DNA of 29,099 bases. Origin: a virus. Positions 8,153-29,099 of this stretch are shown in pieces. The translations under genes were made by a program, and so were the position numbers. The notes below the pieces were generated by a model. It was given only the letters and a program-made list of their open reading frames with translations. It was not told where the DNA came from and did not search any database. The stretch lies in the IMG/VR virus record IMGVR_UViG_3300017989_000347, positions 1 to 29,099 of that record. One strand, 5' to 3'. The first letter of the stretch is position 1. The number at the start of each line of letters is the position of its first letter.

Positions 8153-8733
8153 TTATTCCAAAAAACATCGCGATCAAATTGTTCACTGAAACGGGTGTTT
8201 CGTCCCATGCGGAAAAGTGGGGTGATGATCGATTGTTGCACAAACTGAACAGTTTCAAAGGGACAGTTGATGAATACCTCGACCGACCTGAAAATGAGAT
8301 GATGTGCCGATGGTTTATCGCTGTTTTGGCGGCGAATGAATCCGGGGATGTTATCGAAATCGGTGATGATGTTGAATTGTCAGACGATGAAAAAGGCACG
8401 GCACCGGAAACGATCGACATTCCTGATGATTTGAATTTGGACACGAATCGAGGTCCGAAAAAAGGATTGCAACGAACCCGTATGTATTGGGCGGGCGTTG
8501 CGTTGGCGAATCTGGGAACGCATGAAATCACACAAAAACACATCGATTTCGTTGATGCGAATTATCGTCCGACTGGAAAACACAAACCGAATGCGATTGC
8601 ATCAAAGGAATGTTTGACGAAATCGCTGGCGGCGCTGTCCGGGTACAACAACAAAAACGATCGCGCGATATTCGACGACGATCAAGATGCCCGGACAGAG
8701 CAGGCGGAAAACGGATTGCGGGGGTTTTTCTGA
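8149..8733 (+). CDS. Unknown acidic replication-operon protein (194 aa)
   Basis: I do not recognise this protein. The N-terminal part (MIIPKNIAIKLFTETGVSSHAEKW) is followed by an acidic stretch (about residues 65-95). The C-terminal half has a helical pattern R..YWAGVALANLGTHEIT..HIDFVDANY...AIASKECLTKSLAALSGYN that also appears, as far as I recall, in uncharacterised phage proteins. The ATG at 8149 is chosen over 8113 because of the ATGA overlap with the zinc-finger gene. The stop shares a base with the next start (TGATG). Position between helicase and clamp suggests a replication accessory role. Confidence 0.75.
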   Translation: MIIPKNIAIKLFTETGVSSHAEKWGDDRLLHKLNSFKGTVDEYLDRPENEMMCRWFIAVLAANESGDVIEIGDDVELSDDEKGTAPETIDIPDDLNLDTNRGPKKGLQRTRMYWAGVALANLGTHEITQKHIDFVDANYRPTGKHKPNAIASKECLTKSLAALSGYNNKNDRAIFDDDQDARTEQAENGLRGFF

Positions 8734-9776
8734 TGGATTCGTTTATTCTCGATTCAGGGGCGTTCACAGCGTTTACGCGTGATGTAGAAATCGATTTGAC
8801 GGCATACATTGAATTTTGCCGTCAGCATATTGACGACGTTGATTATGTTGTTGCGTTGGATGTGATTCCGAAAGGAATCAGAACATCGCAAGTTTTCGAC
8901 GATGTGTGTCGTCAAAATTGGAATAACTGGAAACAAATGTGCAACAGATTGCCACGCGAAAAAATCATTCCGGTTTTTCATCGTGGGGAATCGTGGGAAT
9001 GGTTGCGACGATATATCGACGCCGGGTGTGAATACATCGGATTTGGTCAGATGCGTCAGAAACCGGGTAAAGCGATTCACGATCAAGATATGTTGATGTG
9101 GTTCGCCGACATGAAACGGCATTTGATCCCGGAAGGTACCGACACACCGATCGTAAAAACACATGGATTCGCGGCGACTGGATTGGATGTCATGCAGTTG
9201 TTTCCGTGGCATTCTGTTGATTCGTCGACATGGGTGAAATCCGCCGGATATGGTCGGGTGTGGATTCCAAAAGAACGCAGAGGTAAATGGGATTACCTTG
9301 ATCCATGTGTTGTAAATTTTTCGCCCAAATCGCCGACGAAATACAAAAAGGGGGATCACGTTTGTAATGTGACATTCACCCGACGCAATCAAATCGTTAG
9401 GTATCTGAATGAAATCGGTATGCGTGTCGGGGAATTTGAACGCGTCGAGGTGCCGGACGATTACGAAAAACCTGAAGTCGTCGAACAATGGGTCGACACG
9501 TCCAAGTCAGGCGCCGTGTATCGCGAAAAATCACCGGGATTGTCGACCCGATTATTGCATCGAAAGATTTCGAACGCGAAATTCATTCGTCGTTTTCAGG
9601 ACACACACCCATCGATACAGAAAATTTATTTTGCCGGTATCGAAGACGCTGAACCAGAAATTCTGGATTTAGTTGATCACGGGTTGATGTCGTTTTTTTA
9701 CATCCACAGTTCGCCGACCATACGAAAGATGTTCGACGGAATCATTGAGAGGTTGAAAGATGCGCGTAAATCGTGA
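8733..9776 (+). CDS. TGT/DpdA-like TIM-barrel transglycosylase
   Basis: A 347-aa protein starting at the ATG in TGATG. The N-terminus, FILDSGAFTAF (4-14), and later VALDVIPKGI, IIPVFHRGESWEWL and CEYIGFGQM, together with KTHGFAATG...FPWHSVDSSTWVKSAGYGRV, match phage proteins related to tRNA-guanine transglycosylase. DSGAF supplies the pocket Asp and SVDSTSW-like motifs follow in the barrel. Family members called DpdA exchange guanine for 7-deazaguanine in phage DNA. No preQ0 synthesis genes (queC, queD, queE, folE) lie in this window, so any base would come from elsewhere in the genome or from the host. The exact reaction is inferred; an RNA target is the alternative. Confidence 0.6.
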   Translation: MDSFILDSGAFTAFTRDVEIDLTAYIEFCRQHIDDVDYVVALDVIPKGIRTSQVFDDVCRQNWNNWKQMCNRLPREKIIPVFHRGESWEWLRRYIDAGCEYIGFGQMRQKPGKAIHDQDMLMWFADMKRHLIPEGTDTPIVKTHGFAATGLDVMQLFPWHSVDSSTWVKSAGYGRVWIPKERRGKWDYLDPCVVNFSPKSPTKYKKGDHVCNVTFTRRNQIVRYLNEIGMRVGEFERVEVPDDYEKPEVVEQWVDTSKSGAVYREKSPGLSTRLLHRKISNAKFIRRFQDTHPSIQKIYFAGIEDAEPEILDLVDHGLMSFFYIHSSPTIRKMFDGIIERLKDARKS

Positions 9777-10794: not shown

Positions 10795-12027
10795 ATGTCA
10801 CTTGGATTTTTCGAAAAAGAAAAAACGCACCGACCGATCACTGCCGCTGATTTGCCAAAATGCGGTGAATGTGGTTTGAAGTCGGGTTGCGTGAATCCCA
10901 TGATGCCCGTATCAGGCAGCGGGAAATCGCGTGTGTTGATCGTTTTGCCGCGACCGCATGGAATAGATGATCGTGCGAACAAGTGGATCACAGGCGGCAG
11001 GCGGTCGATTTTAGAGGGTGGTCTGAAGTCTGCCGGGTTGACGTGGGACGATGTTTGGTTGACAGGTGCGACGATTTGTGGATCAGACGAAAAAGCTGAT
11101 CCGAAACAGATCGATTTTTGTCGACCGAATATCATGAAAACAATGGCGGAACTCGATCCTGATGTCGTGGTGTTGGCGGGACAGGCACCTATTCGATCAG
11201 TGATACAACCGACATGGATCAAATCGATCAGTAATTACGATCCGTGGATTTATGGCGGGTGGAACATTCCATCGCATTTTTACAATCGATGGATTTGTCC
11301 GACATATGATCCGACGTATGTTCGGGATCAGGAAGCGAACGGAAAACCGTCGGCACCGGTTGCAGATTTGTGGTTTCGCGAACACCTGTTTCAGATCAAA
11401 AAATTGATTGGAACGCGACCATTCGATGTTGATCCGCCGGATTACACAAAACAGGTCGAAGTGATTCGGGATTCAGATGAGGCGGCGTACAGGATCAGGC
11501 GTTTTTTGTCATCGACAAAACCGGCGACGATAGACATCGAAACCAATCGATTGAAACCTGACCACAATGGATCGAAAATTCGATCATGCGCCGTACATTG
11601 TTCTGGTGAAGTCGTATCGTATTTGTGGGAAGGCGGCGCGATCGATGCGACATTAGAGTTGATGCGATCCGATGTGCCTAAAATTGGCGCGAACTCAAAA
11701 TTCGAAGATCGTTGGTTCGGTGTGCTGTACAATACGCATTACAACAATTTGATTTTCGATACGATGCTGGTCGCGCATTGCCTCGATAATCGAGGTACAA
11801 AATCTGACGACGAAAAGTCGCCGGGGTTGTCGTCTGTCAAATTTCAGGGATACGTGCGATTGGGCGTGACGTGGTCCGGTAAAATGGACGCGTATTTCGA
11901 AAGTGGTGACGATGGGTGGAATCGTGTTTTCGATGCACCGGTTGAGGATTTGTTGATTTACAACGGCATGGATGTTTTGATCGAACACAAAATCGCAGTT
12001 TTACAGCGCAAGGAATCAGGAATATGA
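10795..12027 (+). CDS. UDG-like domain fused to a DEDD 3'-5' exonuclease
   Basis: Two domains. Residues about 20-200 resemble family 4 uracil-DNA glycosylase: Cys23, Cys26, Cys95 and Cys109 fit an Fe-S cluster, with ITGGRRSILEGGLKSAGL (65-82) and DPDVVVLAGQAP. The usual GExPG loop is not evident, and the HPS-like loop reads TYDPTYV (170-176), with Asp for the catalytic His, so glycosylase activity is doubtful. Residues about 235-410 are a proofreading exonuclease: DIET (247-250), NSKFED (300-305) and YNGMD (389-393). In SPO1-like phages such domains are joined to a PolA polymerase; here the polymerase is the separate gene at 12665. The stop overlaps the MazG-like start (ATGA). Confidence 0.82.
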   Translation: MSLGFFEKEKTHRPITAADLPKCGECGLKSGCVNPMMPVSGSGKSRVLIVLPRPHGIDDRANKWITGGRRSILEGGLKSAGLTWDDVWLTGATICGSDEKADPKQIDFCRPNIMKTMAELDPDVVVLAGQAPIRSVIQPTWIKSISNYDPWIYGGWNIPSHFYNRWICPTYDPTYVRDQEANGKPSAPVADLWFREHLFQIKKLIGTRPFDVDPPDYTKQVEVIRDSDEAAYRIRRFLSSTKPATIDIETNRLKPDHNGSKIRSCAVHCSGEVVSYLWEGGAIDATLELMRSDVPKIGANSKFEDRWFGVLYNTHYNNLIFDTMLVAHCLDNRGTKSDDEKSPGLSSVKFQGYVRLGVTWSGKMDAYFESGDDGWNRVFDAPVEDLLIYNGMDVLIEHKIAVLQRKESGI

Positions 12028-12665
12028 CCGAACATGAAAAACGATGTCGACGATGGGGAATTGAGCGCAATTTGTTGAATGCATCGACGCCGGGCATCCA
12101 AATGGTTTTGGTGATTGAGGAAACATCAGAATTTTTGGAATACCATGTCAGTCGGACAGACAACGGCGGCGGTGTGCCAGATGAACAACGCCGCAATCGG
12201 CGAATCAAGGGCATGAAAGATTCGATCGGGGATGCCCGCGTTTTTATGATCCAGTGTTGTTCGTTTTACTCGTTTGATTTTCATGATTGTGACAACGAGG
12301 CGACCAAAACTGTCGATGATTTCATTCCCGGTGATGATGATGTTTACGACAAATTGACTGCGATCATCGCCAAGATCAACACAGAAGTTACACGGGCGAT
12401 GATGGCGATCGAATCTGGTGATTCCGTCGATTTGAAACAGCGAATCGGCAATATCAATCGCGGGTTTTTGGCGTTGATCCCTGACCCATCAATGATTGAC
12501 GAGTGTGATCAAATCGCATGGGATTCAATCAAGGATCGGCAAGGGATGTTCATCAACAAAAAGTTCGTCAAGGAACAGGATTTCACGCCGGAACAACGTC
12601 AACAGTTCCATCAGATGCAACGCAACAACAAAATGTACGCCGATAAAATGTTGGGTGATGCCTGA
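12024..12665 (+). CDS. MazG-like NTP pyrophosphohydrolase
   Basis: A 213-aa helical protein. The segment QMVLVIEETSEFLEYHV (26-42) carries the E-x2-E metal site of MazG-type all-alpha nucleotide pyrophosphatases, and MKDSIGDARVFMIQCC (64-79) carries the second acidic pair (D66, D70). MazG enzymes hydrolyse NTPs or dNTPs to monophosphates and, in phages, have been linked to nucleotide-pool or ppGpp control. The C-terminal 90 residues are unmatched. It sits between the exonuclease and polymerase halves of the replicase with ATGA and TGATG overlaps on both sides, an odd place for a housekeeping enzyme and possibly linked to nucleotide supply at the fork. Confidence 0.65.
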   Translation: MTEHEKRCRRWGIERNLLNASTPGIQMVLVIEETSEFLEYHVSRTDNGGGVPDEQRRNRRIKGMKDSIGDARVFMIQCCSFYSFDFHDCDNEATKTVDDFIPGDDDVYDKLTAIIAKINTEVTRAMMAIESGDSVDLKQRIGNINRGFLALIPDPSMIDECDQIAWDSIKDRQGMFINKKFVKEQDFTPEQRQQFHQMQRNNKMYADKMLGDA

Positions 12666-14077
12666 TGTCGGTAATCCCCGCTGTACCACATGAACGACGT
12701 GCATTTGATCTGTTGTTGCAGGGATCACAGGCGTTATCACAGGTCGAAACGAACGGTTTCCGCATCGATACCGCATATCTGGAACGGGCAATCGCGTGGT
12801 CAGAGGAAACGTTGAAGGGACTATACGACGATTTGCGAAAGGATGAATTTTGGAGTGATTGGAAAAAGTCGTATGGTACCGGGGCAAACATGCAATCACG
12901 AAAACAATTCGGTGAAATGCTGTTTGATGTCCGTGGGTACGAATGCCGAAATTATACCGGCGACGATACGAGCGAAAACCGTCGCGCGAAAACCGACCCT
13001 GAATCATTGAGTCACATCGATTTGCCGTTTATCAAAAAATGGGAATCGTGGCAGCAATTGACGAAATGCAACAGTACATTTTTGAAGGGTATTTTGGCGG
13101 AAGTTGACGACCGTGGGTATTTGCATCCGGTGTTCAATCTGCATTGTGTTTCGACGTACCGTTCATCATCAGATTCGCCGAATTTCCAAAACTTCCCGGC
13201 ACGCAACAAACGTCTGTCGCGATTGGTACGCCGGGCATTCATTCCCCGCGACAGTCATGTGTTGTGTGAAGTCGATTTTGGTGCGTTGGAATTTCGCGGC
13301 GCGGCGTGTTTTTGGCGCGATCCTGCAATGTTGGAATACGCCGCTGACATGTCTTTGGATATCCACCGCGATATGGCGGCGGAAGTGTTCGGTGTATCCC
13401 GCGATCAGGTATCAAGCATGGCGCGCACGATGACGAAAAACGGTTTCGTTTTTCCAATTTTGTACGGGTCGTGGTACAAATCATGTGCGGTTGCGTTGTG
13501 GGAAGCGATCGCAAAAATGGGTATCAAAACGGTCGATGGTGTTTGTCTGTATGATCATTTGTTGACCGATCACGGTATTCGGAATTTGGACGATTACACG
13601 GAACACGTTCGTAAAGTCGAGGAACGTTTCAACAATAAATTTTCACATTGGTCATCGGAAAAAGAAAAATGGTGGAACCTGTACCTGAAACGCGGGTGGT
13701 TCCCATTGATGACAGGATTTGTTTGCAAGGGTGAATATTCTCGAAACAATTTGATGAATACGCCGATTCAGGGTCCGTCATTCCATTTGTTGTTGTGGTC
13801 GTTGGCGCAATTGCAAAATTGGTTGGTTTCGAAAAACATGCGATCGAAAATTGTGGGTCAGATTCACGATTCGATCGTTTTGGATATCCATGAAAGCGAA
13901 CTCGATGATGTGCTGAATATGGCACATCAAATCATGACTGTTTCGGTTCGTGAGCATTGGGATTGGGTACAGGTGCCGTTGATCGTCGAGGCAGAAGTTG
14001 CCACCGGTACATGGTTTGACAAACGCGAATATATCGATGATGGGTCAGGTCATTGGATCGCAAAACAAGTTGCATGA
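12665..14077 (+). CDS. polA: Family A DNA polymerase, polymerase domain
   Basis: A 470-aa protein with thumb-to-fingers architecture but no exonuclease domain of its own. Motif A is VDFGALEFRG (203-212, catalytic Asp), with DFGALE replacing the common DYSQIE. Motif B is RTMTKNGFVFPILYG (254-268), a variant with KNGFVFP seen in phage PolA enzymes. Motif C is GQIHDSIVLD (398-407), with HDS in place of HDE. STYRSSSDSPNFQNFP (163-178) is the conserved template/primer segment. It would be the main replicase, relying on the UDG-exonuclease protein (10795) for proofreading and the flap nuclease (17974) for primer removal. The start shares a base with the MazG-like stop. Confidence 0.93.
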   Translation: MSVIPAVPHERRAFDLLLQGSQALSQVETNGFRIDTAYLERAIAWSEETLKGLYDDLRKDEFWSDWKKSYGTGANMQSRKQFGEMLFDVRGYECRNYTGDDTSENRRAKTDPESLSHIDLPFIKKWESWQQLTKCNSTFLKGILAEVDDRGYLHPVFNLHCVSTYRSSSDSPNFQNFPARNKRLSRLVRRAFIPRDSHVLCEVDFGALEFRGAACFWRDPAMLEYAADMSLDIHRDMAAEVFGVSRDQVSSMARTMTKNGFVFPILYGSWYKSCAVALWEAIAKMGIKTVDGVCLYDHLLTDHGIRNLDDYTEHVRKVEERFNNKFSHWSSEKEKWWNLYLKRGWFPLMTGFVCKGEYSRNNLMNTPIQGPSFHLLLWSLAQLQNWLVSKNMRSKIVGQIHDSIVLDIHESELDDVLNMAHQIMTVSVREHWDWVQVPLIVEAEVATGTWFDKREYIDDGSGHWIAKQVA

Positions 14078-20158: not shown

Positions 20159-20198
20159 TTTTACATCTGAATTGCCCGGAATGTTCAAAGAACCATGA
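20148..20198 (+). CDS. Possible 16-residue coupling ORF
   Basis: A 16-codon frame from ATG at 20148, inside the end of the 56-aa gene, to TGA at 20198, which overlaps the start of the Rad50-like gene (ATGA). It fills the only break in an otherwise continuous chain of overlapping genes, so it may exist to keep ribosomes moving into the ATPase gene. No strong ribosome binding site. Confidence 0.25.
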   Translation: MIVDFTSELPGMFKEP

Positions 20199-21310
20199 TT
20201 GAAAAAATCACGATCGAGAATTTCCAAAAACACCGCAAATCGGTGTTCGAATTCGATCCTGTCACAACGTTTGTCGGACCATCTGACACCGGCAAATCGG
20301 CGATCATGCGGGCGTTGCGTTGGGTGATGTTGAATGAACCCGATGGTGATTCGTTTGTGTCGTACGGCGCGAAAGGCTGCACGGTTCGTCTGTACGTCGA
20401 CGGACATGTGATTGTTCGGCGTCGAGGTGGATCGAAGAACGAATACGAACTTGACGGGGAAGTTTACAAGGCATTCGGGCGGGGCGGTGTCCCTGAACAG
20501 ATCGCCGAAATTTTGCGGGTCACACCGATCAATTTTCAATCACAACATGATTTGTTGTACTGGTTGCAGTTGAACGGGGCAGATTTGGCAAAGGCATTGA
20601 ACCGGGTCGTCGATTTGGAAATCATCGATGCATCGCTGGTCGAGGTCAACAAACGTTTGCGTCGGTCAAAATCTGAATTGGAAATTCGCGATCGTGATCT
20701 GATCGAAGTCGATCAACAAATTGATGCGTTAGATTGGTTTGAAATCGCCGATGTTGAATTCCGAAAATGTGTCCGAATCGCTGAAAAATGGCAGGATGTG
20801 CAAAAACAACAAAATGCGTTGTCGGTGTCACACCAGTCAGTGATCGATCTGAAGTCGCGTGAAAAGGTCATTTCTGATGCCGTGTCTGACGCGACGTTCG
20901 TTGAAATCGGTGACAGGATTGAAATCACGTCAAAACAGGCGAACGTACTACAGGCGATTTTGCGGGGTGTCAGGGCATCTGATCGAATCGTCGATCGATC
21001 GGCAGTCGGTCCCCTCGATTTGGACGTATTGTTAGGGGATTGGAAACAGGCGGCAGAACAACGACGTTTGTTGAAATCGGCAATTGATTTCGTCCATCAA
21101 CAACAGTCATCCGTGACTGTTGTTGATCCCCTCGATTTTGATGAGGAAATCGCAGGAATGGAAAGCATCGCACAGGATGCTGCCGATTTGCATGAAATTA
21201 TTCAGGCAGTCGAAATGTTGAGAAATAAAATCAGCCACATCGACGAGGAATTGAAACGATGGTCGGTGTACCTTGATCAGTTCGACGTGTGTCCGTTGTG
21301 CGGGAAATAA
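20195..21310 (+). CDS. Rad50/SbcC-like ATPase, N-terminal half ending at the zinc hook
   Basis: A 371-aa protein. It opens like Rad50/SbcC/SMC proteins (MIEKITIENFQKHRKSVFEF), with Walker A GPSDTGKS (28-35) and Q-loop FQSQHD (114-119). Residues about 125-360 are mainly helical and charged, as in a coiled-coil arm. The final residues are CPLCGK (366-371), the CxxC zinc hook that normally lies in the middle of Rad50, and translation stops right there. No Walker B or signature motif is present. Those are in the separate gene at 25641, so the two proteins probably form one ATPase. The SbcD/Mre11-like gene follows at 21314. Confidence 0.85.
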   Translation: MIEKITIENFQKHRKSVFEFDPVTTFVGPSDTGKSAIMRALRWVMLNEPDGDSFVSYGAKGCTVRLYVDGHVIVRRRGGSKNEYELDGEVYKAFGRGGVPEQIAEILRVTPINFQSQHDLLYWLQLNGADLAKALNRVVDLEIIDASLVEVNKRLRRSKSELEIRDRDLIEVDQQIDALDWFEIADVEFRKCVRIAEKWQDVQKQQNALSVSHQSVIDLKSREKVISDAVSDATFVEIGDRIEITSKQANVLQAILRGVRASDRIVDRSAVGPLDLDVLLGDWKQAAEQRRLLKSAIDFVHQQQSSVTVVDPLDFDEEIAGMESIAQDAADLHEIIQAVEMLRNKISHIDEELKRWSVYLDQFDVCPLCGK

Positions 21311-21313
21311 TCG

Positions 21314-22249
21314 ATGAAAGATTTGCAACCAGTTGCGATAACAATCGGCGATGTGCATTTGACGGTTCAACCGCCGGTTTCGCGTTCGCCGCATGCTGAC
21401 ATGTGGATCGATTATCAATGGCAACGGATGGACGAAGTTCGCCGGTTGTGTGATGAGTTTATGTGTCCATTGTTGATCGCTGGTGATGTGTTCGATGTGT
21501 GGTATCCACCGGCGAAATTGATCAACGCTGCAATCAGGATGTTTCGGCAATTTCCGTACAAAGTCTATGCCGTGCCGGGTCAGCATGATTTGCAAAACCA
21601 CCGAATCGAAGCGATTGAAAACACGGGGTACCATACGCTGGAACTGGCAGGGGTGATTGAGACAATTCCGAACGACGGCAAACCGATGCGGGAATTGGGT
21701 TGCAATCTGTACGGTTTGCCGTGGATGGGTGAAATTCCGAAAGTATCAGAACAGGAACATGATCGATTGAATGTCCTCGTCGCACATGCATTCATTTGGA
21801 CATCGGGCGAAAACGGATACGTTGGGGCAGATGATGAGGACAAATTGCCCGGTTGGCTGAAAAAGTTACAAGATTTCAACGTTGCGATTTTTGGCGATAA
21901 TCACAAAGGGTTTTGGGTCAGCCCCAAAACTGGACCGACAACAATTTGGAACGGTGGTGCGTTTGTCTGTCGTACGAAAGCCGAAATCGATTATCGATGT
22001 CGCGCGGGAATCGTGTACAGTGACGGCACAATCGAACCGTATTATTTTTCAACAGATGCGGATTTGTGGTCGATTGAGGCACAACAGGAAACGGTCGATC
22101 GTGAATTTGATTTGTCAGGGTTGATCGATGAATTGAAAAACCTCGATCCTGATTCGATTGATTTTCAAGAAATCATCGACGCGCTATGCCGTGAACTCGA
22201 TATCGATTCACGGGAAGTTGTTTCGTCAGTATTGGACACGGTCAGATGA
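21314..22249 (+). CDS. SbcD/Mre11-like metallophosphoesterase
   Basis: A 311-aa protein with metallophosphoesterase motifs in order: IGDVHL (11-16, Asp-x-His), AGDVFD (56-61), PGQHD (88-92, a GNHD variant with Gln for Asn), LVAHAF (about 155) and FGDNHKG (about 194-200, where a GHxH motif is usual, His to Asp). The altered motifs suggest weakened or altered metal binding. A C-terminal segment (FDLSGLIDEL...DPDSIDFQEIIDALCRELDIDSREVV) is helical and acidic, possibly for partner docking. It would be the nuclease partner of the Rad50-like halves (20195 and 25641) in DNA-end processing. Only three bases separate it from the ATPase gene. Confidence 0.85.
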   Translation: MKDLQPVAITIGDVHLTVQPPVSRSPHADMWIDYQWQRMDEVRRLCDEFMCPLLIAGDVFDVWYPPAKLINAAIRMFRQFPYKVYAVPGQHDLQNHRIEAIENTGYHTLELAGVIETIPNDGKPMRELGCNLYGLPWMGEIPKVSEQEHDRLNVLVAHAFIWTSGENGYVGADDEDKLPGWLKKLQDFNVAIFGDNHKGFWVSPKTGPTTIWNGGAFVCRTKAEIDYRCRAGIVYSDGTIEPYYFSTDADLWSIEAQQETVDREFDLSGLIDELKNLDPDSIDFQEIIDALCRELDIDSREVVSSVLDTVR

Positions 22250-22968
22250 ACAAAAAACGCATTTCGAACCAATCATCGATCGAGGGTTCCGAATTGGAAT
22301 ACCGCACAAACATTATGCGGGTCATGGTTCGATCAAACTGGGATGAAAAAATCGTCGATCAGATTTTCAATCACGATACACCAGAAATTGAATTTGCTGA
22401 AAAATTGATTCAACAGCACGGCAACACAAAAGCGATGGAAATTTGCCGACGTTTTCAGTGTGACGATCCTGAAAAAGACATTCGACAGCTTGATTGGATT
22501 ATCGTCGATGGTACCGTGATGCGGTGTTTGATGATTTTTGAAGGCGGTCACGAATTGTGGGGATTGCGACGGGATGGGCATTGGTCGCATCATTACATGT
22601 GCGACGTTCAACGACATGAACAATCGGCGTCACAATTGTCACAATTGAAAAACCCGATGCCGATCGAAACAACTTGCAAATCTGTAGCGGATGTTTTGCG
22701 TACTTTCGGATTTCGCGGATTGCGGTTCGAATCTGTCGAAAACACGACGCACCGAAAAGATGATTTCGGATCAGTTGAGCATTACCGGCGGGCAGTGTTG
22801 TGTTCGTCTGAATTGATCATCGTGCCGATTATTGATCATCATTCAGGGTTTGATGAGGATCGATACGAACGCGATTTGCGTGAATGGTTCACCGATATTT
22901 TTCCCGATGACGTTGTGATTGAGTATCACGAACAATGGGAATGGACATTTCATCGAAAGGCAAAATGA
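22246..22968 (+). CDS. Unknown protein (240 aa)
   Basis: I do not recognise this protein. It is soluble, mixed in secondary structure and rich in His, Trp and acidic residues; examples are GHELWGLRRDGHWSHHYMC in the middle and YHEQWEWTFHRK at the end. Cysteines are scattered without a clear zinc pattern. It is joined to the SbcD-like gene upstream and to the coiled-coil gene downstream by ATGA overlaps, so it may belong to the end-processing module. Confidence 0.7.
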   Translation: MNKKRISNQSSIEGSELEYRTNIMRVMVRSNWDEKIVDQIFNHDTPEIEFAEKLIQQHGNTKAMEICRRFQCDDPEKDIRQLDWIIVDGTVMRCLMIFEGGHELWGLRRDGHWSHHYMCDVQRHEQSASQLSQLKNPMPIETTCKSVADVLRTFGFRGLRFESVENTTHRKDDFGSVEHYRRAVLCSSELIIVPIIDHHSGFDEDRYERDLREWFTDIFPDDVVIEYHEQWEWTFHRKAK

Positions 22969-23213
22969 TGACGGATGTTGTTGAAGAATACCGCAACGCG
23001 AAAAAACGCGTTCAGGAATTGAACGCCGAACGGGATCGGGCACAGGGCGCCATCGATCAGCAGATGAAAACATTGCAAGCTGATTTTGGTGTATCGTCGA
23101 TCGAGGATGCCGAAAAGTTGCTGAAAGATTTGGAACGGCAGGAATCCGAATTGAAAGAGGAATTCGAAACGTCGTTCGATTCGTGGAAAGATAAGTACGG
23201 CGACAAACTTTGA
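22965..23213 (+). CDS. Small coiled-coil protein (82 aa)
   Basis: Nearly all helix-forming: VVEEYRNAKKRVQELNAERDRAQGAIDQQMKTLQ, a short break (FGVSSIEDAEK), then LLKDLERQESELKEEFETSFDSWKDKYG. Heptad spacing of hydrophobic residues gives a two-helix coiled coil. GAAAGG precedes the ATG at 22965, which overlaps the previous stop. It is the last gene of the SbcCD-like block and is followed by a terminator. It may contribute coiled-coil to the split ATPase or act as a chaperone or anti-restriction factor; the first is only my inference. Confidence 0.75.
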   Translation: MMTDVVEEYRNAKKRVQELNAERDRAQGAIDQQMKTLQADFGVSSIEDAEKLLKDLERQESELKEEFETSFDSWKDKYGDKL

Positions 23214-23219
23214 AAAAAT

Positions 23220-23244
23220 CCCCGATTTTTGTCGGGGTTTTGTT
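23220..23244 (+). terminator. Intrinsic terminator after the coiled-coil gene
   Basis: CCCCGA (23220-23225) and TCGGGG (23232-23237) form a perfect 6-bp stem with a 6-nt loop, followed by TTTTGTT. The last T of this run is the first T of a TTGACA hexamer, so terminator and the promoter-derived repeat are fused here. Confidence 0.75.
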
Positions 23245-23274
23245 GACACATGGTAGATGCAACAAAATCAACTG
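23243..23274 (+). repeat. Left-hand direct repeats at the foreign cassette
   Basis: TTGACACATGGTAGATG (23243-23259) differs at one base from the promoter core at 24390-24406. CAACAAAATCAACTG (23260-23274) follows at once and matches CAACAACGTCAACTG (24297-24311) at 13 of 15 positions. The -35 hexamer is present but no TATAAT follows, so this looks like a truncated promoter copy at the cassette junction. Confidence 0.6.
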
Positions 23275-23289
23275 GAGCTTGTGAACACT

Positions 23290-23466
23290 ATGAAGACTCA
23301 ACAAGAATGCTGGGAAGCTGTGATCGATGGCGAAACACTGGAAAACATCAGTGACCCGAACGACTGCTGGTGCATGTCGTCAGATGGGCATCTTGTTCAT
23401 GCAATCACAGGCAGGCATCAACCGCCTTTTGGACTGCGCGAGGAATCGCCAAGAACTATCCACTAA
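23290..23466 (+). CDS. Unknown cassette protein 1 (58 aa)
   Basis: I do not recognise it. GGAG (23274-23277) lies 12 bases before the ATG. The sequence has an amphipathic start (MKTQQECWEAVIDGETLENIS), a Cys-rich middle (DCWCMSSDGHLVH) and a Pro/Arg-rich end. DGHLVH resembles a small recurring motif in HNH/NUMOD-type modules, but this is too short to assign. Codon use (CTG, AAG, ATC) differs from native genes. It is the first gene inside the foreign cassette. Confidence 0.5.
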   Translation: MKTQQECWEAVIDGETLENISDPNDCWCMSSDGHLVHAITGRHQPPFGLREESPRTIH

Positions 23467-23515
23467 GGGGAAGCGTGAGTGAACCGACTAGACCAGCGTT
23501 TAAGGAGGAATCCCA

Positions 23516-23908
23516 TTGAACGTCAATTTTGAACTGACTCTGACTCGCGACGCACGTCACTGGGTGCGTGGTTACTGCTCCGGATGCGGAGTCCAGATTG
23601 ATCATGTGCGCGGGCATGGGGATTCCCCCAAGCTTAACGCAGTGCGGATCTCGCTCGCCAAGCAGTTGGCAAAGCGTCACTTTTCCGTGGTCGAGATCAG
23701 CGAGGCGATCAATCACAGTGAGGAGTGGGTTACTCAGGCTATCAACCGCACACTGCCCAAGGAGACACGTAAGATCGCTGGCGAGACCTACGAGGTGGTT
23801 GCCGAGTGCCACGCCAAGCCGGGCAATATTATCCGTGAGGAACCTAAGCGGAACGGGACCACGCGGGTGTTGATTTTGCGCAAGGATACGAGTCCCCAAA
23901 ATCTATGA
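23516..23908 (+). CDS. Putative helix-turn-helix/zinc regulator of the cassette (130 aa)
   Basis: Start codon TTG at 23516, preceded by a perfect AAGGAGG (23502-23508). The N-terminus has CSGCGVQIDHVRGHG, a possible zinc knuckle; residues about 40-65 (RISLAKQLAKRHFSVVEISEAINHSEEWVTQAI) fit a helix-turn-helix, and the remainder is beta-like with a basic end. Codon use is GC-rich (GAG, AAG, GCC, CGC) and unlike the surrounding phage genes. It is probably a DNA-binding regulator acquired with the cassette. The strong ribosome binding site suggests high expression. Confidence 0.6.
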   Translation: MNVNFELTLTRDARHWVRGYCSGCGVQIDHVRGHGDSPKLNAVRISLAKQLAKRHFSVVEISEAINHSEEWVTQAINRTLPKETRKIAGETYEVVAECHAKPGNIIREEPKRNGTTRVLILRKDTSPQNL

Positions 23909-23969
23909 CCGGGCTAGACAGCAGCGGAATAAGGGCACATAATCAAATCAAATCCAACCGACTTATCCA

Positions 23970-24007
23970 AGGCGGTCTCACTCTTCGGAGCGGGACCGCC
24001 TTTTTTT
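23970..24007 (+). terminator. Strong UUCG-loop terminator in the foreign cassette
   Basis: AGGCGGTC (23970-23977) pairs with GACCGCCT (23994-24001). The inner stem CTC/GAG encloses a TTCG tetraloop (UUCG in RNA), giving a helix of about 13 pairs with one mismatch, followed by seven T residues (24001-24007). UUCG-capped stems are unusually stable. No other terminator in this window uses this loop. Confidence 0.88.
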
Positions 24008-24030
24008 GTGCGCGACGAAGGAGCGATACA

Positions 24031-24295
24031 GTGACTGATGCGGAGTTTGCCAAGAAAGCCGCTGCTGGGTTCAACAAAGAACTCGATGTGCCGTTCATCC
24101 CGGAAGGCCAGGAGGGCGCGTGGATTGAGTGGGCGATTCTCAAGATTGCTCCCGTTCACGGAGGCGTTGCGGGCTCTTGTGGGTGGTCAATGTACAGCGA
24201 TCGCCAAAGACAATGGATCGGTAATCTATAGCCATGACTGCTTTGACGAATTGCTGCTCCGCGACCTTGACGCCGAGTGGGAGTTGGTGAAATGA
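24031..24295 (+). pseudogene. Small cassette gene, possibly frameshifted
   Basis: GTG at 24031 follows GAAGGAG (24017-24023) and opens a frame reading VTDAEFAKKAAAGFNKELDVPFIPEGQEGAWIEWAILKIAP that ends at TAG 24231. A second frame (24038-24295) ends in a more protein-like stretch, RALVGGQCTAIAKDNG...HDCFDELLLRDLDAEWELVK. Joining the two near 24148-24155 (around CCCG) gives one plausible protein of about 88 residues. This suggests a single-base frameshift, or programmed +1 slippage at CCC-G. Read literally, the intact product is 66 aa. I do not recognise the family. Confidence 0.45.
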
Positions 24296-24321
24296 ACAAC
24301 AACGTCAACTGCGTTGTTGTT
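24295..24321. repeat. Perfect 10-bp inverted repeat at the cassette right end
   Basis: AACAACAACG (24295-24304) and CGTTGTTGTT (24312-24321) are perfect reverse complements with a 7-nt loop. A second dyad, GATCGC/GCGATC, follows at about 24322-24344. The first overlaps the right-hand copy (24297-24311) of the direct repeat at the cassette left end. Confidence 0.65.
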
Positions 24322-24389
24322 GATCGCGAAAACGAATTGCGATCGCTGTGAAATTTTAAAAACTTTTCGATTTTTACCTATATCATCGA

Positions 24390-24417
24390 TTGACACATGG
24401 TCGATGATAGGTATAAT
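24390..24417 (+). promoter_or_regulatory. Strong sigma70-type early promoter, copy 2
   Basis: TTGACA (24390-24395) and TATAAT (24412-24417) with a 16-bp spacer, in the block TTGACACATGGTCGATGATAGGTATAATTGGGAC. It is nearly identical to the promoter at 1543-1570, with the same upstream AAAAACTTTTCGATTTTT tract. It drives the 383-aa gene at 24452 and probably the genes beyond. Confidence 0.85.
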
Positions 24418-24451
24418 TGGGACGAGTCAAACACAACCTGAAAGGCAAACG

Positions 24452-25603
24452 ATGTCAACCCGAACTGATATTCACTGCCCATCAAAACTGAATCCGTCCC
24501 AATATGAATACGTCGGGGCGTTCTATCATCCCGGAAAAAAGACCGTCCCGGATTACCTCGATTCGATCGTTGCCGGTTGGCTGGAATCGATTGATCAACA
24601 CATGAGGGACACTGGCGGTAAATGGGCGAACCATAAACACGGCGGAACGTGCATGTCGTGCGGGGCACATGCGAAATATCTTGCTGTTTTCTATCATCAA
24701 CCATCGAACGAATACATCGCGACAGGTTTCGATTGTGCCGTCAAAATCCAGTTGCAGCACGATCAGACTCAATTGAAGCGGATGAAAAAATCGTTCCAGA
24801 ACGCGACCCGTATGGCGTTGAATTCAGAATTGGCAATTCAGGTCATGGAAAACAATGGTACATCGTTTGTTCTCGATTGGATCAATGACGACGAGATTGA
24901 AAAACGATTTCCCTGGTTCTGTTCGAATTCCACTAATTTCAAATCGTATTCGAATACATACTGGACCGTTATGGACATTGCATACAAGGTGCAACAGTAC
25001 GGACAATTTTCCAGTGATCGACAACAAGATTTGTTTAATCGTAAAGTCGAATCAACATTGGCGTTGACGTTGAAAAACATCCTCGTCGATATGGACGAAA
25101 ACGATGATACGCGTCCGTTTGTCGATGAAATCGTTGAATCGGGTGAATTCGTCGCATTGTTCCCATTCGCCGATTGGCTTGAAGAAAATATCGATTCACC
25201 GGTTTGTGAACTGATTCGATGTCAGTCACAGGAAACATTCGATAAGGGTGTGCAATGGTTTGTCGAACATCGCAGCAAAAAACCCATCGACACAACGACG
25301 CGCGAAATCACAGGGGAAGTGATTTCGGTAAAACACGTTGATTCAATGTACGGCGGCACATTGAAGGTGACGGTTCAGGATGATCGCGGGTTTCGCGTTT
25401 ATGGGACATTGGCGGCAGCAATCGACGATGCCGTGAAGGGGGACCGAATTACTTTTCGTGTCGCAAACGTGAAGGCATCAAATGATGATGCGGCGTTTGG
25501 ATTTTTCCAACGTCCGACGCGCGCTGCATTTCTTCACCGGGTCGAACGTGAAATTGATAATGTGCCTGTTGAATTTGACCCATTATCACATCACGCTTTT
25601 TGA
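24452..25603 (+). CDS. Unknown Zn/OB-domain protein under the early promoter (383 aa)
   Basis: The first gene after promoter copy 2; GAAAGG lies ten bases before the ATG. Residues about 65-97 (HGGTCMSCGAHAKYLAVFYHQPSNEYIATGFDCAVKI) form a probable zinc site, C-x2-C with downstream His and Cys. The middle is helical. The C-terminal about 100 residues (GEVISVKHVDSMYGGTLKVTVQDDRGFRVYGTLAAAIDDAVKGDRITFRVANVK...FGFFQRPTRA) have the beta-barrel look of an OB fold, and RPT(R/K)A endings recur in phage proteins of unknown function. Nucleic-acid binding is a reasonable guess. Strong promoter plus leader suggests abundant early expression. Confidence 0.75.
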   Translation: MSTRTDIHCPSKLNPSQYEYVGAFYHPGKKTVPDYLDSIVAGWLESIDQHMRDTGGKWANHKHGGTCMSCGAHAKYLAVFYHQPSNEYIATGFDCAVKIQLQHDQTQLKRMKKSFQNATRMALNSELAIQVMENNGTSFVLDWINDDEIEKRFPWFCSNSTNFKSYSNTYWTVMDIAYKVQQYGQFSSDRQQDLFNRKVESTLALTLKNILVDMDENDDTRPFVDEIVESGEFVALFPFADWLEENIDSPVCELIRCQSQETFDKGVQWFVEHRSKKPIDTTTREITGEVISVKHVDSMYGGTLKVTVQDDRGFRVYGTLAAAIDDAVKGDRITFRVANVKASNDDAAFGFFQRPTRAAFLHRVEREIDNVPVEFDPLSHHAF

Positions 25604-25607
25604 TGTC

Positions 25608-25623
25608 GTGGCGTACAATCAAA
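25608..25623 (+). promoter_or_regulatory. Conserved element before the Rad50 C-half gene
   Basis: GTGGCGTACAATCAAA contains a TACAAT -10-like hexamer (25614-25619) and matches a second element at 27917-27932 at 15 of 16 positions. No clear -35 is visible, so an activator- or phage-sigma-dependent promoter is possible. Confidence 0.4.
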
Positions 25624-25640
25624 CAAAGGGAATGTGACCA

Positions 25641-26219
25641 ATGATTGATTTTGACGAAATTGATGACATTTCGGATCGCCTCGATGAAATCGAGGAAAAT
25701 CGAAATCGTTTGTTGTCGAGGCGATCCGAATTGAAAAATCAGATTCAGAACCTCGACGACATCGTCAGGTCGATTGAAACGGCGCAGGGCGTGTTTCAAT
25801 CAGCCAGTGAAACAATACAGTCGCGTGTACATGATCGATTGTCTGCGATCGTTTCACGGGCATTGTCGGACATTTTTGATGATCCGTACGAATTCAACAT
25901 CTTGTTCGAACGGAAACGCGGCAAAACGGAAGCAAAAATCGTATTAGAACGTGATGGGATGCAAATTGATCCTGTTGAGGCGGCAGGCGGTGGTGTTGCC
26001 GATGTGATTGCGTTTGCGTTGCGCGTGGCATCGATGTTGATGCATCAACCACCATTGCGGCGGTTGATTTGTGCCGACGAGGCGTTGAAGTTTGTATCGA
26101 AAGAATATCGACAGGGTTGCCGGTCGTTGATTGATGTGTTGTCGGATGAATTCAACGTTCAGTTCATTACGGTCACACACGATCCCGTATTGACCACAGG
26201 AAAAGTGATTTCAACATGA
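25641..26219 (+). CDS. Rad50/SbcC-like ATPase, C-terminal half
   Basis: A 192-aa protein. The first 60 or so residues (DEIDDISDRLDEIEENRNRLLSRRSELKNQIQNLDDIVRSI) are a short coiled coil, followed by the C-terminal ATPase lobe: ABC-type signature EAAGGGVADV (113-122), Walker B RLICADEALK (141-150) and H-loop THD (179-181). There is no Walker A; that motif is in the protein encoded at 20195. Together they make one complete Rad50/SbcC head, so the proteins should associate. The foreign cassette and the 383-aa gene lie between the halves. The stop overlaps the next start (ATGA). Confidence 0.85.
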   Translation: MIDFDEIDDISDRLDEIEENRNRLLSRRSELKNQIQNLDDIVRSIETAQGVFQSASETIQSRVHDRLSAIVSRALSDIFDDPYEFNILFERKRGKTEAKIVLERDGMQIDPVEAAGGGVADVIAFALRVASMLMHQPPLRRLICADEALKFVSKEYRQGCRSLIDVLSDEFNVQFITVTHDPVLTTGKVIST

Positions 26220-26620
26220 TGTCGTTCAATTTGAAATGTCCAGAATGCGGAAACGTGTTTGTTGATGACGGTACAGATGCCGAAATCGATTGCGATTGTG
26301 GATTCCCTGTATCAGACATGCCTGCCGACATGCAGGATTTGCCACAATGGGCGCCGGATGTTTCATCGTCATCGGTGTTCATGCACACCGATGACGACGA
26401 GGCAACCCGACAATCAGAGATCATAGAATCACGGGGAAAAATCTATTTACCGGATGGTGATGAAATCGAGGGTTTGGCGATGCGGTTCAGGCTGGATAGT
26501 GTTCGCCGAAAAGAAAACGAGGGTGAAAATTCCAGTCGAACGCGACATGCGCGCGTCAACGACGGTCATTTTAGAACGTGTAAATCAACAGTGGAATTTA
26601 ACGATGTCGATGAGTTATGA
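26216..26620 (+). CDS. Zinc-ribbon protein (134 aa)
   Basis: The N-terminus FNLKCPECGNVFVDDGTDAEIDCDCGFPV holds a four-Cys zinc ribbon (CPEC and CDCG). The rest is acidic with a DDDE segment (about 59-62), then a basic, low-complexity C-terminus. ATGA overlaps join it to the ATPase half upstream and to the epimerase downstream. The function is unknown; a role in protein or nucleic-acid contact in the end-processing set is possible. Confidence 0.65.
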   Translation: MMSFNLKCPECGNVFVDDGTDAEIDCDCGFPVSDMPADMQDLPQWAPDVSSSSVFMHTDDDEATRQSEIIESRGKIYLPDGDEIEGLAMRFRLDSVRRKENEGENSSRTRHARVNDGHFRTCKSTVEFNDVDEL

Positions 26621-27603
26621 AAAATGTGATGGTGACAGGTGGCGGCGGATTCATTGGTTCACATCTGGTCGATGTGTTGTTGTCCCGTTGTGAGACGATT
26701 TTGATCATCGAAAAATTCGACGAAAATTCATCGGTGAAGCCGATGACTGAATCGATGCAACATATCATGAAATACGTCGATGGCGGTCCTGAGACCCATC
26801 GCGCCGTGACGTTGTCATATAATCCTTACGGATTATGTTCGTCGGCAATCAGTGAAATGCTAGATCATTGTAACATCGACACCGTGTTTCATTTGGCGGC
26901 AAATCCATCCGTCGCAAAATGCGAATCCAGTCACACCGCGATTCAGGATAATTTCGAAACGACGGTTCGGATGATTAACGAGGTCAACGCGTCGTCGACG
27001 GTGAAACGGTTTGTGTATGCGGCATCGGGTGGCACCGTTTACGGTGAAGGTTGCCAGATTCCATCATCAGAATACTCGACGCCTCGACCATCATCTGAAT
27101 ACGGTTTGACAAAACATTTCGGTGAATTATGGATGAGACAATTGCGACCTGACATTGCTGGTGTTTCATTGCGATTGGCGAATGTGTACGGACAGCGTCA
27201 AAATCCGCATGGCGAATCTGGCGTGATCGCTGCATGGTTGAACAAAGTCGCGAATGACGAACCGTTGATCATTTACGGCGACGGAAATCAGACACGGGAC
27301 TACATTCACGTTGATGATGTGGTGACGGCGTTCATCGATGCGGTGTCGTGGACGATGCGAAATGACTACGAACCCGGATTTGACGTGTTCAACATCGGCA
27401 CCGAAAAAGAAACAACGATCAACGAACTGTATGATCATTTTTGTGCGGTGTTCAATCGTAAATTACCAGTTGACCGAAAACCCGAACGTGAATTCGAAAT
27501 CAAATGTAATCACCTGAAAAACGCAAAAGCTAGTCGCGTTTTGGGATGGTGTCCTCGCGTTGAATTGCCGATCGGATTGGCGGAAACGGTAGGTGCGTTT
27601 TGA
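26617..27603 (+). CDS. NAD-dependent sugar epimerase/dehydratase (extended SDR)
   Basis: A 328-aa Rossmann-fold enzyme. The dinucleotide site is VTGGGGFIGSH (6-16), and the catalytic YxxxK is YGLTK (162-166). Also visible are FHLAANPSVAKCE, the LRLANVYG segment (about 186-193) and GNQTRDYIHVDDV (about 223-235), typical of UDP-glucose 4-epimerase/GDP-mannose dehydratase relatives. It would convert a nucleotide sugar in the host cytoplasm, for lipopolysaccharide, capsule or glycosylation. It is an auxiliary metabolic gene set among DNA-processing genes. The exact substrate cannot be told. Confidence 0.9.
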   Translation: MKNVMVTGGGGFIGSHLVDVLLSRCETILIIEKFDENSSVKPMTESMQHIMKYVDGGPETHRAVTLSYNPYGLCSSAISEMLDHCNIDTVFHLAANPSVAKCESSHTAIQDNFETTVRMINEVNASSTVKRFVYAASGGTVYGEGCQIPSSEYSTPRPSSEYGLTKHFGELWMRQLRPDIAGVSLRLANVYGQRQNPHGESGVIAAWLNKVANDEPLIIYGDGNQTRDYIHVDDVVTAFIDAVSWTMRNDYEPGFDVFNIGTEKETTINELYDHFCAVFNRKLPVDRKPEREFEIKCNHLKNAKASRVLGWCPRVELPIGLAETVGAF

Positions 27604-28046
27604 TCAATCATGGGTCACCGTTGCCGCATCAGATCGCCATTGCGATGTCATCGATGGATTTTTCGGAACTCGAAAAACGAATCAAATCGGCGTACCCGAA
27701 TGCCACATTCATCAGAGTACAGGACACGATCACAGTCGATTTAGGATTGGTTCATTTATCTGCCGCACGATTAGAAGAAATTCAAATCCAGTTGCAACAG
27801 GTCGCGAAACAGGTTGCCGAAATTGGATCGGCGATGAATCAGATCATCAAAAATCTGTTTCTGGATGAAAACGTTTTACTGAAACCGACGGATTGTTTCG
27901 GTCCGATGTTGCTGATGTGGCGTATAATCAAAGTGATCCAAGTGATCAGGAACAAGGGACCGCCTGATTCAATCGAGCTATTTCCGAGATTTGAGAGACG
28001 ATGCCCGGCGATCTTGCCGGGTCGCATAACGGGCATCGTCATTTGA
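27600..28046 (+). CDS. Unknown protein with odd 3' end (148 aa)
   Basis: I do not recognise it. TTG start at 27600 overlaps the epimerase stop; AGGTG lies just upstream. The first 100 or so residues (MSSMDFSELEKRIKSAYPNATFIRV..., a helix IQLQQVAKQVAEIGSAMNQIIKNLF) have phage-like codons. From about 27945 codon use changes (AGG, GGA, CTA, GAG, AGA), and the frame passes through a TATAAT-like hexamer and a large hairpin, so the last 30 residues may be regulatory DNA that is simply read through. A start at the ATG 27645 is possible. Confidence 0.5.
   Translation: MINHGSPLPHQIAIAMSSMDFSELEKRIKSAYPNATFIRVQDTITVDLGLVHLSAARLEEIQIQLQQVAKQVAEIGSAMNQIIKNLFLDENVLLKPTDCFGPMLLMWRIIKVIQVIRNKGPPDSIELFPRFERRCPAILPGRITGIVI
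27917..27932 (+). promoter_or_regulatory. Conserved -10-like element upstream of the 174-aa gene
   Basis: GTGGCGTATAATCAAA contains a consensus TATAAT (27923-27928) and is 15/16 identical to 25608-25623. It lies inside the 3' end of the preceding gene. A good -35 is missing. It would drive the genes starting at 28058, including csrA. Confidence 0.4.
27997..28040 (+). promoter_or_regulatory. Leader hairpin with alternative pairings
   Basis: GACGATGCCC (27997-28006) pairs perfectly with GGGCATCGTC (28031-28040). An inner CCCGGC (28004-28009) with GCCGGG (28016-28021) uses three of the same bases, so the two stems compete. ATTTGAAAGGCAAAACG and the ATG at 28058 follow at once. This resembles an attenuator or protein-responsive leader, but no T-run follows the long stem. 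Confidence 0.5.
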
Positions 28047-28057
28047 AAGGCAAAACG

Positions 28058-28582
28058 ATGTCACAGGCAAAATATTTTTTGCTGATCGATGATGAAAAAA
28101 TCGATCAAATTTGTGATGAACTGAAACAGTGGACAGAAAAACGACACGCCGCGTGTCGTATGTCTCGTCGGGTCGGCGGTAATCGAAACACGGTGTACAC
28201 ATCATCGAATATTCAGGACGAATTCGTTTCCGGTTTCAAATTTGCAAACGAATCGAAAGTCGACAAAAAACAGTTCAAACGGTTGAAGGGTGCGCCAGAT
28301 GGGTGGTGTCCTCGCGCGGATTCGAAATACAAAGATGAATTCAGATCGTTTCGTTCATCATTCCCGATGATGTTGCGCAGAATCGCAGATGTCGATATTT
28401 GGCGAGGAATCGGACATTACATCGATCGTGAAAATCAGATCATCGTCATCGCGGTCGGTGACAGTATGCAAAGCGGGACGTACAAACCGCCTGCACATCT
28501 TAAACGGATTTCGGACATCACCGCCGAAAAAATCAAAAATGGAGAAATCACCGATGTTGGTTCTATCGAGATACAAGGATGA
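28058..28582 (+). CDS. Unknown protein (174 aa)
   Basis: I do not recognise it. The ATG at 28058 follows GAAAGGCAAAACG. The protein is basic in the middle ([23 protein letters not shown]), with an N-terminal [17 protein letters not shown] and a beta-like C-terminal half ([22 protein letters not shown]). The end overlaps the csrA start by 29 bases. No membrane segment or catalytic motif is visible. Confidence 0.7.
28539..28545 (+). promoter_or_regulatory. ANGGA-type CsrA site in the csrA ribosome binding site
   Basis: AUGGA (28539-28543) overlaps the GGAG ribosome binding site (28541-28544) nine bases before the csrA ATG. CsrA proteins bind ANGGA/GGA in mRNA leaders and block ribosomes, so this fits autoregulation; a second GGA (28515-28517, in TTCGGAC) lies about 25 bases upstream. 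Confidence 0.45.
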
Positions 28583-28733
28583 GGTTGTTGTGATTGGGGA
28601 TGATATCCAAATCATGATCATCGATATTCGCGGTGACAAAGTTCGATTAGGGATTCAGGCACCGACGTCGGTGCCGATCCATCGAAAAGAAGTATACGAC
28701 GCGATTCAAAAAGAACGTCAAAAGGACGATTGA
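28554..28733 (+). CDS. csrA: CsrA/RsmA translational regulator
   Basis: A 59-aa protein matching CsrA from end to end: [27 protein letters not shown], then [12 protein letters not shown]. The RNA-contact residues of the family are present: Leu4 and Arg6 near the start and the Arg of the VPIHRKEV segment. CsrA dimers bind GGA motifs in mRNA leaders and change translation or stability. The ATG lies inside the end of the 174-aa gene and has its own GGAG. A phage copy could rewire host carbon metabolism, biofilm or motility genes, or control phage mRNAs; GGA occurs in several phage ribosome binding sites here. Confidence 0.93.
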
Positions 28734-28737
28734 TAAC

Positions 28738-28974
28738 ATGCCTCATCCTGACGAGAAAATCCAAAATAACGCAATCGATTGTGTGGTATCGATGGAAAAT
28801 GCCATATTTCGTTGCGGGGGTAGTATTGAATTGTCACGATTGCTCAACATGACGATACAACAATTCATCACAAGTGTTGCGGCGCCGAATGGTGTTCGAT
28901 TCTGCACAACGGACGATTTGGAAATTGCGGGTATGTCAAAACAGAAACCCGAAATTGATCCCGATGAGGTGTGA
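28738..28974 (+). CDS. Unknown small protein (78 aa)
   Basis: I do not recognise it. AAAGGA lies about 13 bases before the ATG. The protein is mixed, with a Cys in NAIDCVVSME and FRCGG, and ends with a polar tail (KQKPEIDPDEV). RLLNMTIQQFITSVAAPNG may be an amphipathic helix. It stands between csrA and the membrane protein at 28977. Codon use is native. Confidence 0.6.
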   Translation: MPHPDEKIQNNAIDCVVSMENAIFRCGGSIELSRLLNMTIQQFITSVAAPNGVRFCTTDDLEIAGMSKQKPEIDPDEV

Positions 28975-28976
28975 AA

Positions 28977-29099
28977 ATGTCGCAGGAAGAATATGCATTT
29001 TTGTTCGCGTTCGGCGTGATCGTCGTTTTTGGATTTTTGCACATGATTCGTCATTTTTTTGAATCGCGAAAAACGTGGACGATCGAAAAGATGTCGAAA
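28977..29099 (+). CDS. Membrane protein, partial (start only)
   Basis: ATG at 28977 follows GAGGTG at good spacing. Forty-one codons are present, with no stop before the window ends. The N-terminus MSQEEYAFLFAFGVIVVFGFLHMIRHFFESRK has a single strong hydrophobic helix (residues 6-22) followed by positive charges, typical of a small inner-membrane protein with a cytoplasmic basic tail. The full length and function are unknown. Confidence 0.65.
   Translation, partial: MSQEEYAFLFAFGVIVVFGFLHMIRHFFESRKTWTIEKMSK

Follow-up and report, generated by a model that had tools for sequence, protein, structure and literature searches.

A compositionally foreign DNA block between native modules of a phage genome

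Does a short run of genes lying between the two Rad50 halves of a phage genome belong to that genome, or was it taken in from elsewhere and, if so, by which route? The question arose from a sequence-only reading of IMG/VR virus record IMGVR_UViG_3300017989_000347, in which a foreign cassette inserted between native modules had been proposed. The stretch of this record that was analyzed, 29,099 bp long, is referred to here as the window. Family matches identified its + strand as a phage replication/recombination region encoding a helicase, a primase, a DnaB-like helicase, a queuine tRNA-ribosyltransferase-like protein, a sliding clamp, a DNA polymerase in two ORFs, a clamp loader, a UvsX-like recombinase, an exonuclease, a Rad50 N-half, an Mre11-like protein, a Rad50 C-half and a nucleotide-sugar epimerase. 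The block and its neighbors are arranged as follows.

20195-21310, + strand: Rad50/SbcC-like N-terminal half, 371 aa (phrog_16465, 4.8e-31; phrog_77, 8.4e-10)
21314-22249, + strand: Mre11/SbcD-like metallophosphoesterase (PF00149, 2e-6)
22965-23213, + strand: small coiled-coil gene (cc), left of the break, with a homologue in loci G005/L014
23260-24296 (approximate; minimum core 23274-24284), + strand: foreign block, delimited by composition, change points and word counts
24452-25603, + strand: gene 24452, 383 aa, of native composition, with a C-terminal part like phage ssDNA-binding proteins
25641-26219, + strand: Rad50/SbcC C-terminal half ATPase, right of the break (phrog_15167, 1.3e-25)

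The block is indeed placed between the Rad50 halves, with the N-half and Mre11 (20195-22249) on one side and the C-half (25641-26219) on the other. The N-half is 30% identical to Bacillus phage gp32 and carries a zinc-hook-like motif, CPLCGK, at its end. Rad50/SbcC is thus present in the window (20195-26219) as separate N- and C-halves, and in many phages a small coiled-coil gene forms part of this set. A 240-aa ORF of native composition (22246-22968), flanked by Mre11 on one side and by the coiled-coil gene on the other, had no family match and is missing from that position in a relative, G002. The DNA polymerase (10795-14077) likewise consists of two ORFs, one on the exonuclease side (10795-12027) and one on the polymerase side (12665-14077). 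Between them lies an ORF of 213 aa (12024-12665) that matched no family; in G002 it is missing there and the halves overlap directly. The queuine tRNA-ribosyltransferase-like gene (8610-9776; phrog_887, 2e-42) may possibly serve 7-deazaguanine DNA modification.

The composition of the block was compared with that of the remaining window. In a leave-one-out scan of tetranucleotide distance, the segment 23301-24300 lay 6.3 SD above the mean, and none of the segments that did not overlap the block exceeded about 1.6 SD, so that the block, about 1.04-1.05 kb long, is the strongest compositional outlier in these 29 kb. Its GC content also differed (0.54 vs. 0.47). Change points were located at 23268-23272 and 24283-24284 by a maximal-scoring segment analysis with Markov models of order 1-3, whose score is not a significance test, because the block itself served to train the alternative model, and whose edges are still informative. 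Codon scores trained on all other genes of the window were -0.06, -0.18 and -0.14 for the three genes of the block (g1, g2 and g3, respectively), and ranged from +0.08 to +0.24 in all the other ORFs scored.

Word counts were in line with these results. On both strands of the 28-kb flank, GGAG/CTCC was observed 10 times vs. 193 expected from base composition, while the 1-kb block held 14 copies vs. 0.37 expected at the flank rate. On the + strand, GGAG first appears at 23274, followed by ten more copies with the last at 24280, and the nearest others lie at 18616 and 28541. Further, GGAGG, AAGGAG and CTTCGG were absent from either strand of the window outside the block; 10% of the block's 6-mers were found nowhere else in the window (vs. 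0.75% on average, and 1.7% at most, for 40 native control segments), and in its trinucleotides the block was nearer to several phages of 50-52% GC than to its own flanks.

Since the tetranucleotide, change-point, codon and GGAG-word results agree, the reported difference in composition from the flanks is real: it reaches about 6 SD in tetranucleotide distance, far beyond chance, and codon usage, too, revealed a strong difference rather than equality. A preference for GAG, AAG, GCC and CTG in all three genes, as had been claimed, was found in g2 (GAG 9:GAA 2; AAG 8:AAA 0), partly in g3, and not in g1 (GAA 5, GAG 1). Native genes with unusual codon usage, e.g., highly expressed or regulatory ones, would match the strand of phage early genes and be comparable to them in size; nevertheless, such an origin is scarcely credible, as the deviation extends to the non-coding DNA of the block, GGAG/CTCC is frequent in the block and nearly absent from both strands of the flanks, and the genes are absent in relatives.

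The native part of the window (1-23259 and 24351-29099) shows other avoided words as well, with GGCC, CTAG, TTAA, AGCT and GCTA at 4-9% of expectation on both strands and CCCGGG, GCCGGC and GGATCC absent. The GGAG deficit is also found in contig L002 and not in the relatives G002 and G005. Restriction avoidance or a host-driven bias is a possible cause of this word avoidance.

To learn how the junction is organized in other phages, we used an alignment of the Rad50 C-half protein, which led to 28 IMG/VR loci, many of them near-identical to each other and not counted as independent. In most of the 28, a coiled-coil ORF of 77-94 aa directly precedes the C-half, with gaps of -23 to +13 bases. The informative relatives were G002 (53 kb) and G005 (40 kb), whose DNA polymerases are 37% and 35% identical to that of the window and which share, in the parts read, homologues of 15 and 10 window genes, respectively. 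In G002, Rad50N, Mre11, a coiled-coil ORF of 77 aa and Rad50C follow one another with head-to-tail overlaps; in G005, Mre11, cc and Rad50C are contiguous, with cc overlapping Rad50C, and the G005/L014 coiled-coil protein is 41% identical to the product of 22965-23213 (E 6e-13). In the window, by contrast, cc and Rad50C are separated by 2,427 bp that hold the foreign block and gene 24452. Because the two genes are directly adjacent in both relatives, which lack g1-g3 at this site, their separation here is most likely a derived state.

Gene 24452 had no match in G002 or G005 either, and is absent from the cc/Rad50C junction there. As it is native in composition yet absent from the junction in relatives, the simplest history of the gap would involve at least two steps, in an order that the relatives do not give. 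Being distant and also devoid of gene 24452, neither G002 nor G005 reveals the immediate predecessor; our searches returned no near-identical phage without the block, and the single near-identical contig, L002 (5.5 kb), covers the polymerase region only. One extra small ORF was found at the same junction in L010 and in L018/L022, so this junction seems to tolerate insertions.

An assembly chimera, in which a piece from another organism was joined into the phage contig, has to be weighed here, since this is a metagenome contig, a second contig over the junction was not found and g3 carries a frameshift (see below). It is nonetheless very improbable: it would take two independent misjoins, the edges share only 17 bp with a mismatch, which is below the usual assembly word length, the genes of the block are co-oriented with the flanks, and gene 24452, of native composition, likewise parts cc from Rad50C. 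Taken together, its distinct composition and its absence at the site in relatives make a foreign cassette inserted between native modules a well-supported description, as far as composition and distant relatives can show.

The edges of the block, and a distant repeat copy related to them, comprise the following features.

1543-1570, + strand: third promoter copy, complete, upstream of the replication genes
23206-23259, + strand: left copy of a terminator/promoter repeat, with the -35 box TTGACACATGGTAGATG present and the -10 box missing
23220-23237, + strand: terminator-like hairpin CCCCGATTTTTGTCGGGG followed by TTTT, ahead of TTGACACATGGTAGATG
23260-23274, + strand: left copy of an imperfect 15-bp direct repeat, CAACAAAATCAACTG, matching 24297-24311 at 13/15 positions
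24292-24346, + strand: pair of adjacent hairpins at the right edge that takes in the right copy of the 15-bp repeat
24351-24417, + strand: right, complete repeat copy, with the promoter TTGACA-16-TATAAT at 24390-24417 (12/12 consensus)

The repeated promoter said to lie beside the block was thus recovered at 1543, 23243 (partial) and 24390. A scan of the window gave four matches with up to three mismatches, a result that none of 100 shuffles reached, and as an exact pattern the promoter matched no other IMG/VR contig. The left and right repeat copies match over about 55 bp. The left one tracks the complete promoters at 1543 and 24390 to 23259 and departs from them at 23260, and hence is left without a -10 box; it is also the only one of the three copies with a strong terminator hairpin (23220). 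At the right edge, the coding signal stops at the stop codon at 24293-24295, followed by the hairpins and then by the complete repeat from 24351. Inverted repeats surround a ACACATGG core at 23236-23269 and 24380-24409, where the arms differ and each is self-complementary; the promoter copy at 1543 has no inverted repeat around this core.

A 15-bp target-site duplication, or a site-specific or mobile element, could be marked by the repeat CAACAAAATCAACTG / CAACAACGTCAACTG at both compositional edges (P about 0.002-0.004, for positions noticed after the fact) and by the right-end hairpins (RNA fold of 24270-24400, z -3.8; 0 of 200 shuffles). We regard such an element as quite unlikely, given that the repeat is imperfect, that repeats of similar quality occur by chance elsewhere in the region, and that g1-g3 matched no transposase, integrase or homing nuclease family. 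Integron-type cassette ends, sought by eye, were not recognized.

Within the block, three genes and a terminator were delineated.

23290-23466, + strand: g1, orphan ORF of 58 aa with an ATG start and no family or homologue
23516-23908, + strand: g2, orphan ORF of 130 aa with a TTG start and AAGGAGG, a CxxC near the N-terminus and a helical middle
23969-24009, + strand: UUCG-loop intrinsic terminator after g2, with a long GC-rich stem containing a mismatch, then T7
24031-24295, + strand: g3, GTG start; frame 0 ends at 24231 and the +1 frame at 24295

The UUCG terminator of the sequence-only reading was located, and CTTCGG is confined to the block. The AAGGAGG ribosome binding sites proposed for the cassette were found before g2 only, g3 having AAGGAG and g1 only GGAG. 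As for TTG/GTG starts peculiar to it, g2 does start with TTG and g3 with GTG, while g1 starts with ATG and several native ORFs apparently begin with TTG or GTG likewise. Near 24150, the coding signal of g3 moves from frame 0 to frame +1, from which we infer that the gene is very probably frameshifted; it probably represents a broken gene or a sequencing error.

No homologue of g1, g2 or g3 and no donor sequence were found in phages, plasmids, IMG/VR or GTDB contigs; the pattern-based scans among these searches reach close relatives only. In addition, g2 was absent from 22 related or compared records, and neither Rfam nor PADLOC gave a match. In the PDB, g2 matched designed helical repeat proteins (E 4e-11); these matches were discarded, their score being summed over artificial repeats, each single stretch of which is weak. 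The single-sequence AlphaFold model of g2 was unusable (pLDDT 37). Perhaps g2 is a small DNA-binding protein, a weak assignment, and g1-g2 are probably dispensable accessory genes; because the genes of the block are orphans, no functional claim follows.

With regard to transcription, no complete sigma-70-like promoter was found before g1, and the only strong promoter-like site inside the block (23915, 10/12) points into the terminator, so read-through would be the one source identified for g1-g2. These observations bear on whether the block is a true moron, i.e., a unit transcribed autonomously, from a promoter of its own to a terminator of its own, and retained for host or phage benefit. Its differing composition, its position between genes adjacent in relatives and its strong terminator would all suit a true moron. 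Such a unit is unlikely, however, with a left repeat that offers a -35 box without a -10 box, no promoter found before g1, an internal site that faces the terminator and a frameshifted g3.

The explanation that we favor, at a probability of roughly 0.75, is that a ~1.04-kb block from another genome, most likely that of a tailed phage, was inserted at the cc/Rad50C junction, likely via the terminator-promoter repeat. Foreign, probably phage-derived DNA would have been captured at this repeat in the manner of the promoter/stem-loop (PeSL) shuffling of T4, with a cargo of two intact short orphan genes (g1 and g2), a strong terminator and an apparently frameshifted third gene. Recombination at or near the repeat would account for both the left promoter copy that lacks a -10 box and the complete right one. 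From the latter, at 24390, transcription would then start anew into gene 24452 and Rad50C; without it, the terminator at 23220 would uncouple both genes from the operon upstream. This route is deduced from the repeat anatomy, and the imperfect 15-bp edge repeat allows a different breakpoint.

Understood in this manner, the block is a fresh case of well-known phage mosaicism, a clear and fairly ordinary instance of gene shuffling between viruses. It offers a cleanly bounded example of foreign DNA uptake by phages, with a donor signature that has stayed sharp, an ancestral gene junction that relatives allow one to deduce, and one edge marked by a truncated promoter repeat. That a phage lineage unrelated to T4 employs dispersed terminator-promoter repeats as sites of recombination for taking in foreign blocks, at once restoring transcription of the interrupted operon, is a doubtful, tentative generalization. 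If close relatives carry different inserts between the same repeats, promoter-repeat-mediated shuffling would extend beyond T4-like phages and the haloarchaeal virus HGTV-1.

Morons are usually single coding regions flanked by a promoter and a terminator, of differing composition, inserted where relatives have two genes side by side (PMC4378225). Like phage morons (PMC4378225, PMC2147016), the block is extra DNA of differing composition, lies between genes adjacent in (distant) relatives and has its own terminator, placed before g3, between g2 and g3. It differs from them in having more than one gene, this terminator being internal, in its frameshifted last gene and in that sigma-70-like promoters, sought before g1, gave no complete one for g1-g2. 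The proposed moron-type transfer consequently holds for composition and position, and not for the promoter, the gene number and the apparently broken g3; it is further limited by gene 24452, native and missing from the junction in G002/G005, which shares the cc/Rad50C gap. In its workings the block resembles moron-like accessory DNA that has been acquired, but since the search for a promoter of its own found none, we did not file it as a moron.

PeSL shuffling in T4-like phages was reportedly treated by Arbiol in 2010 and by Comeau in 2014. Two papers citing that work, PMC4503421 and PMC3950731, describe PeSLs for T4-like phages and for HGTV-1, and one of the two considers the mechanism improbable where these elements are few. 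The locus resembles the arrangement in T4-like phages in its anatomy, a foreign module with a repeat of stem-loop/terminator and early-type promoter on either side. Unlike that arrangement, it has only three copies in the window, one of them truncated and only the left with a strong terminator hairpin, in a phage that may not be T4-like, and the likeness is one of repeat anatomy. Since the mechanism was considered improbable with few elements in that paper and three copies are present here, a PeSL-like route is one that we infer. Finally, the split Rad50/SbcC operons of Bacillus phage vB_BboS-125, Microcystis phage Mvi-JY20 and prophage-like IMG/VR contigs have the same N-half, small coiled-coil gene and C-half ATPase as the window; there, the coiled-coil gene abuts the C-half, in contrast with the 2.4 kb that lie between them here.
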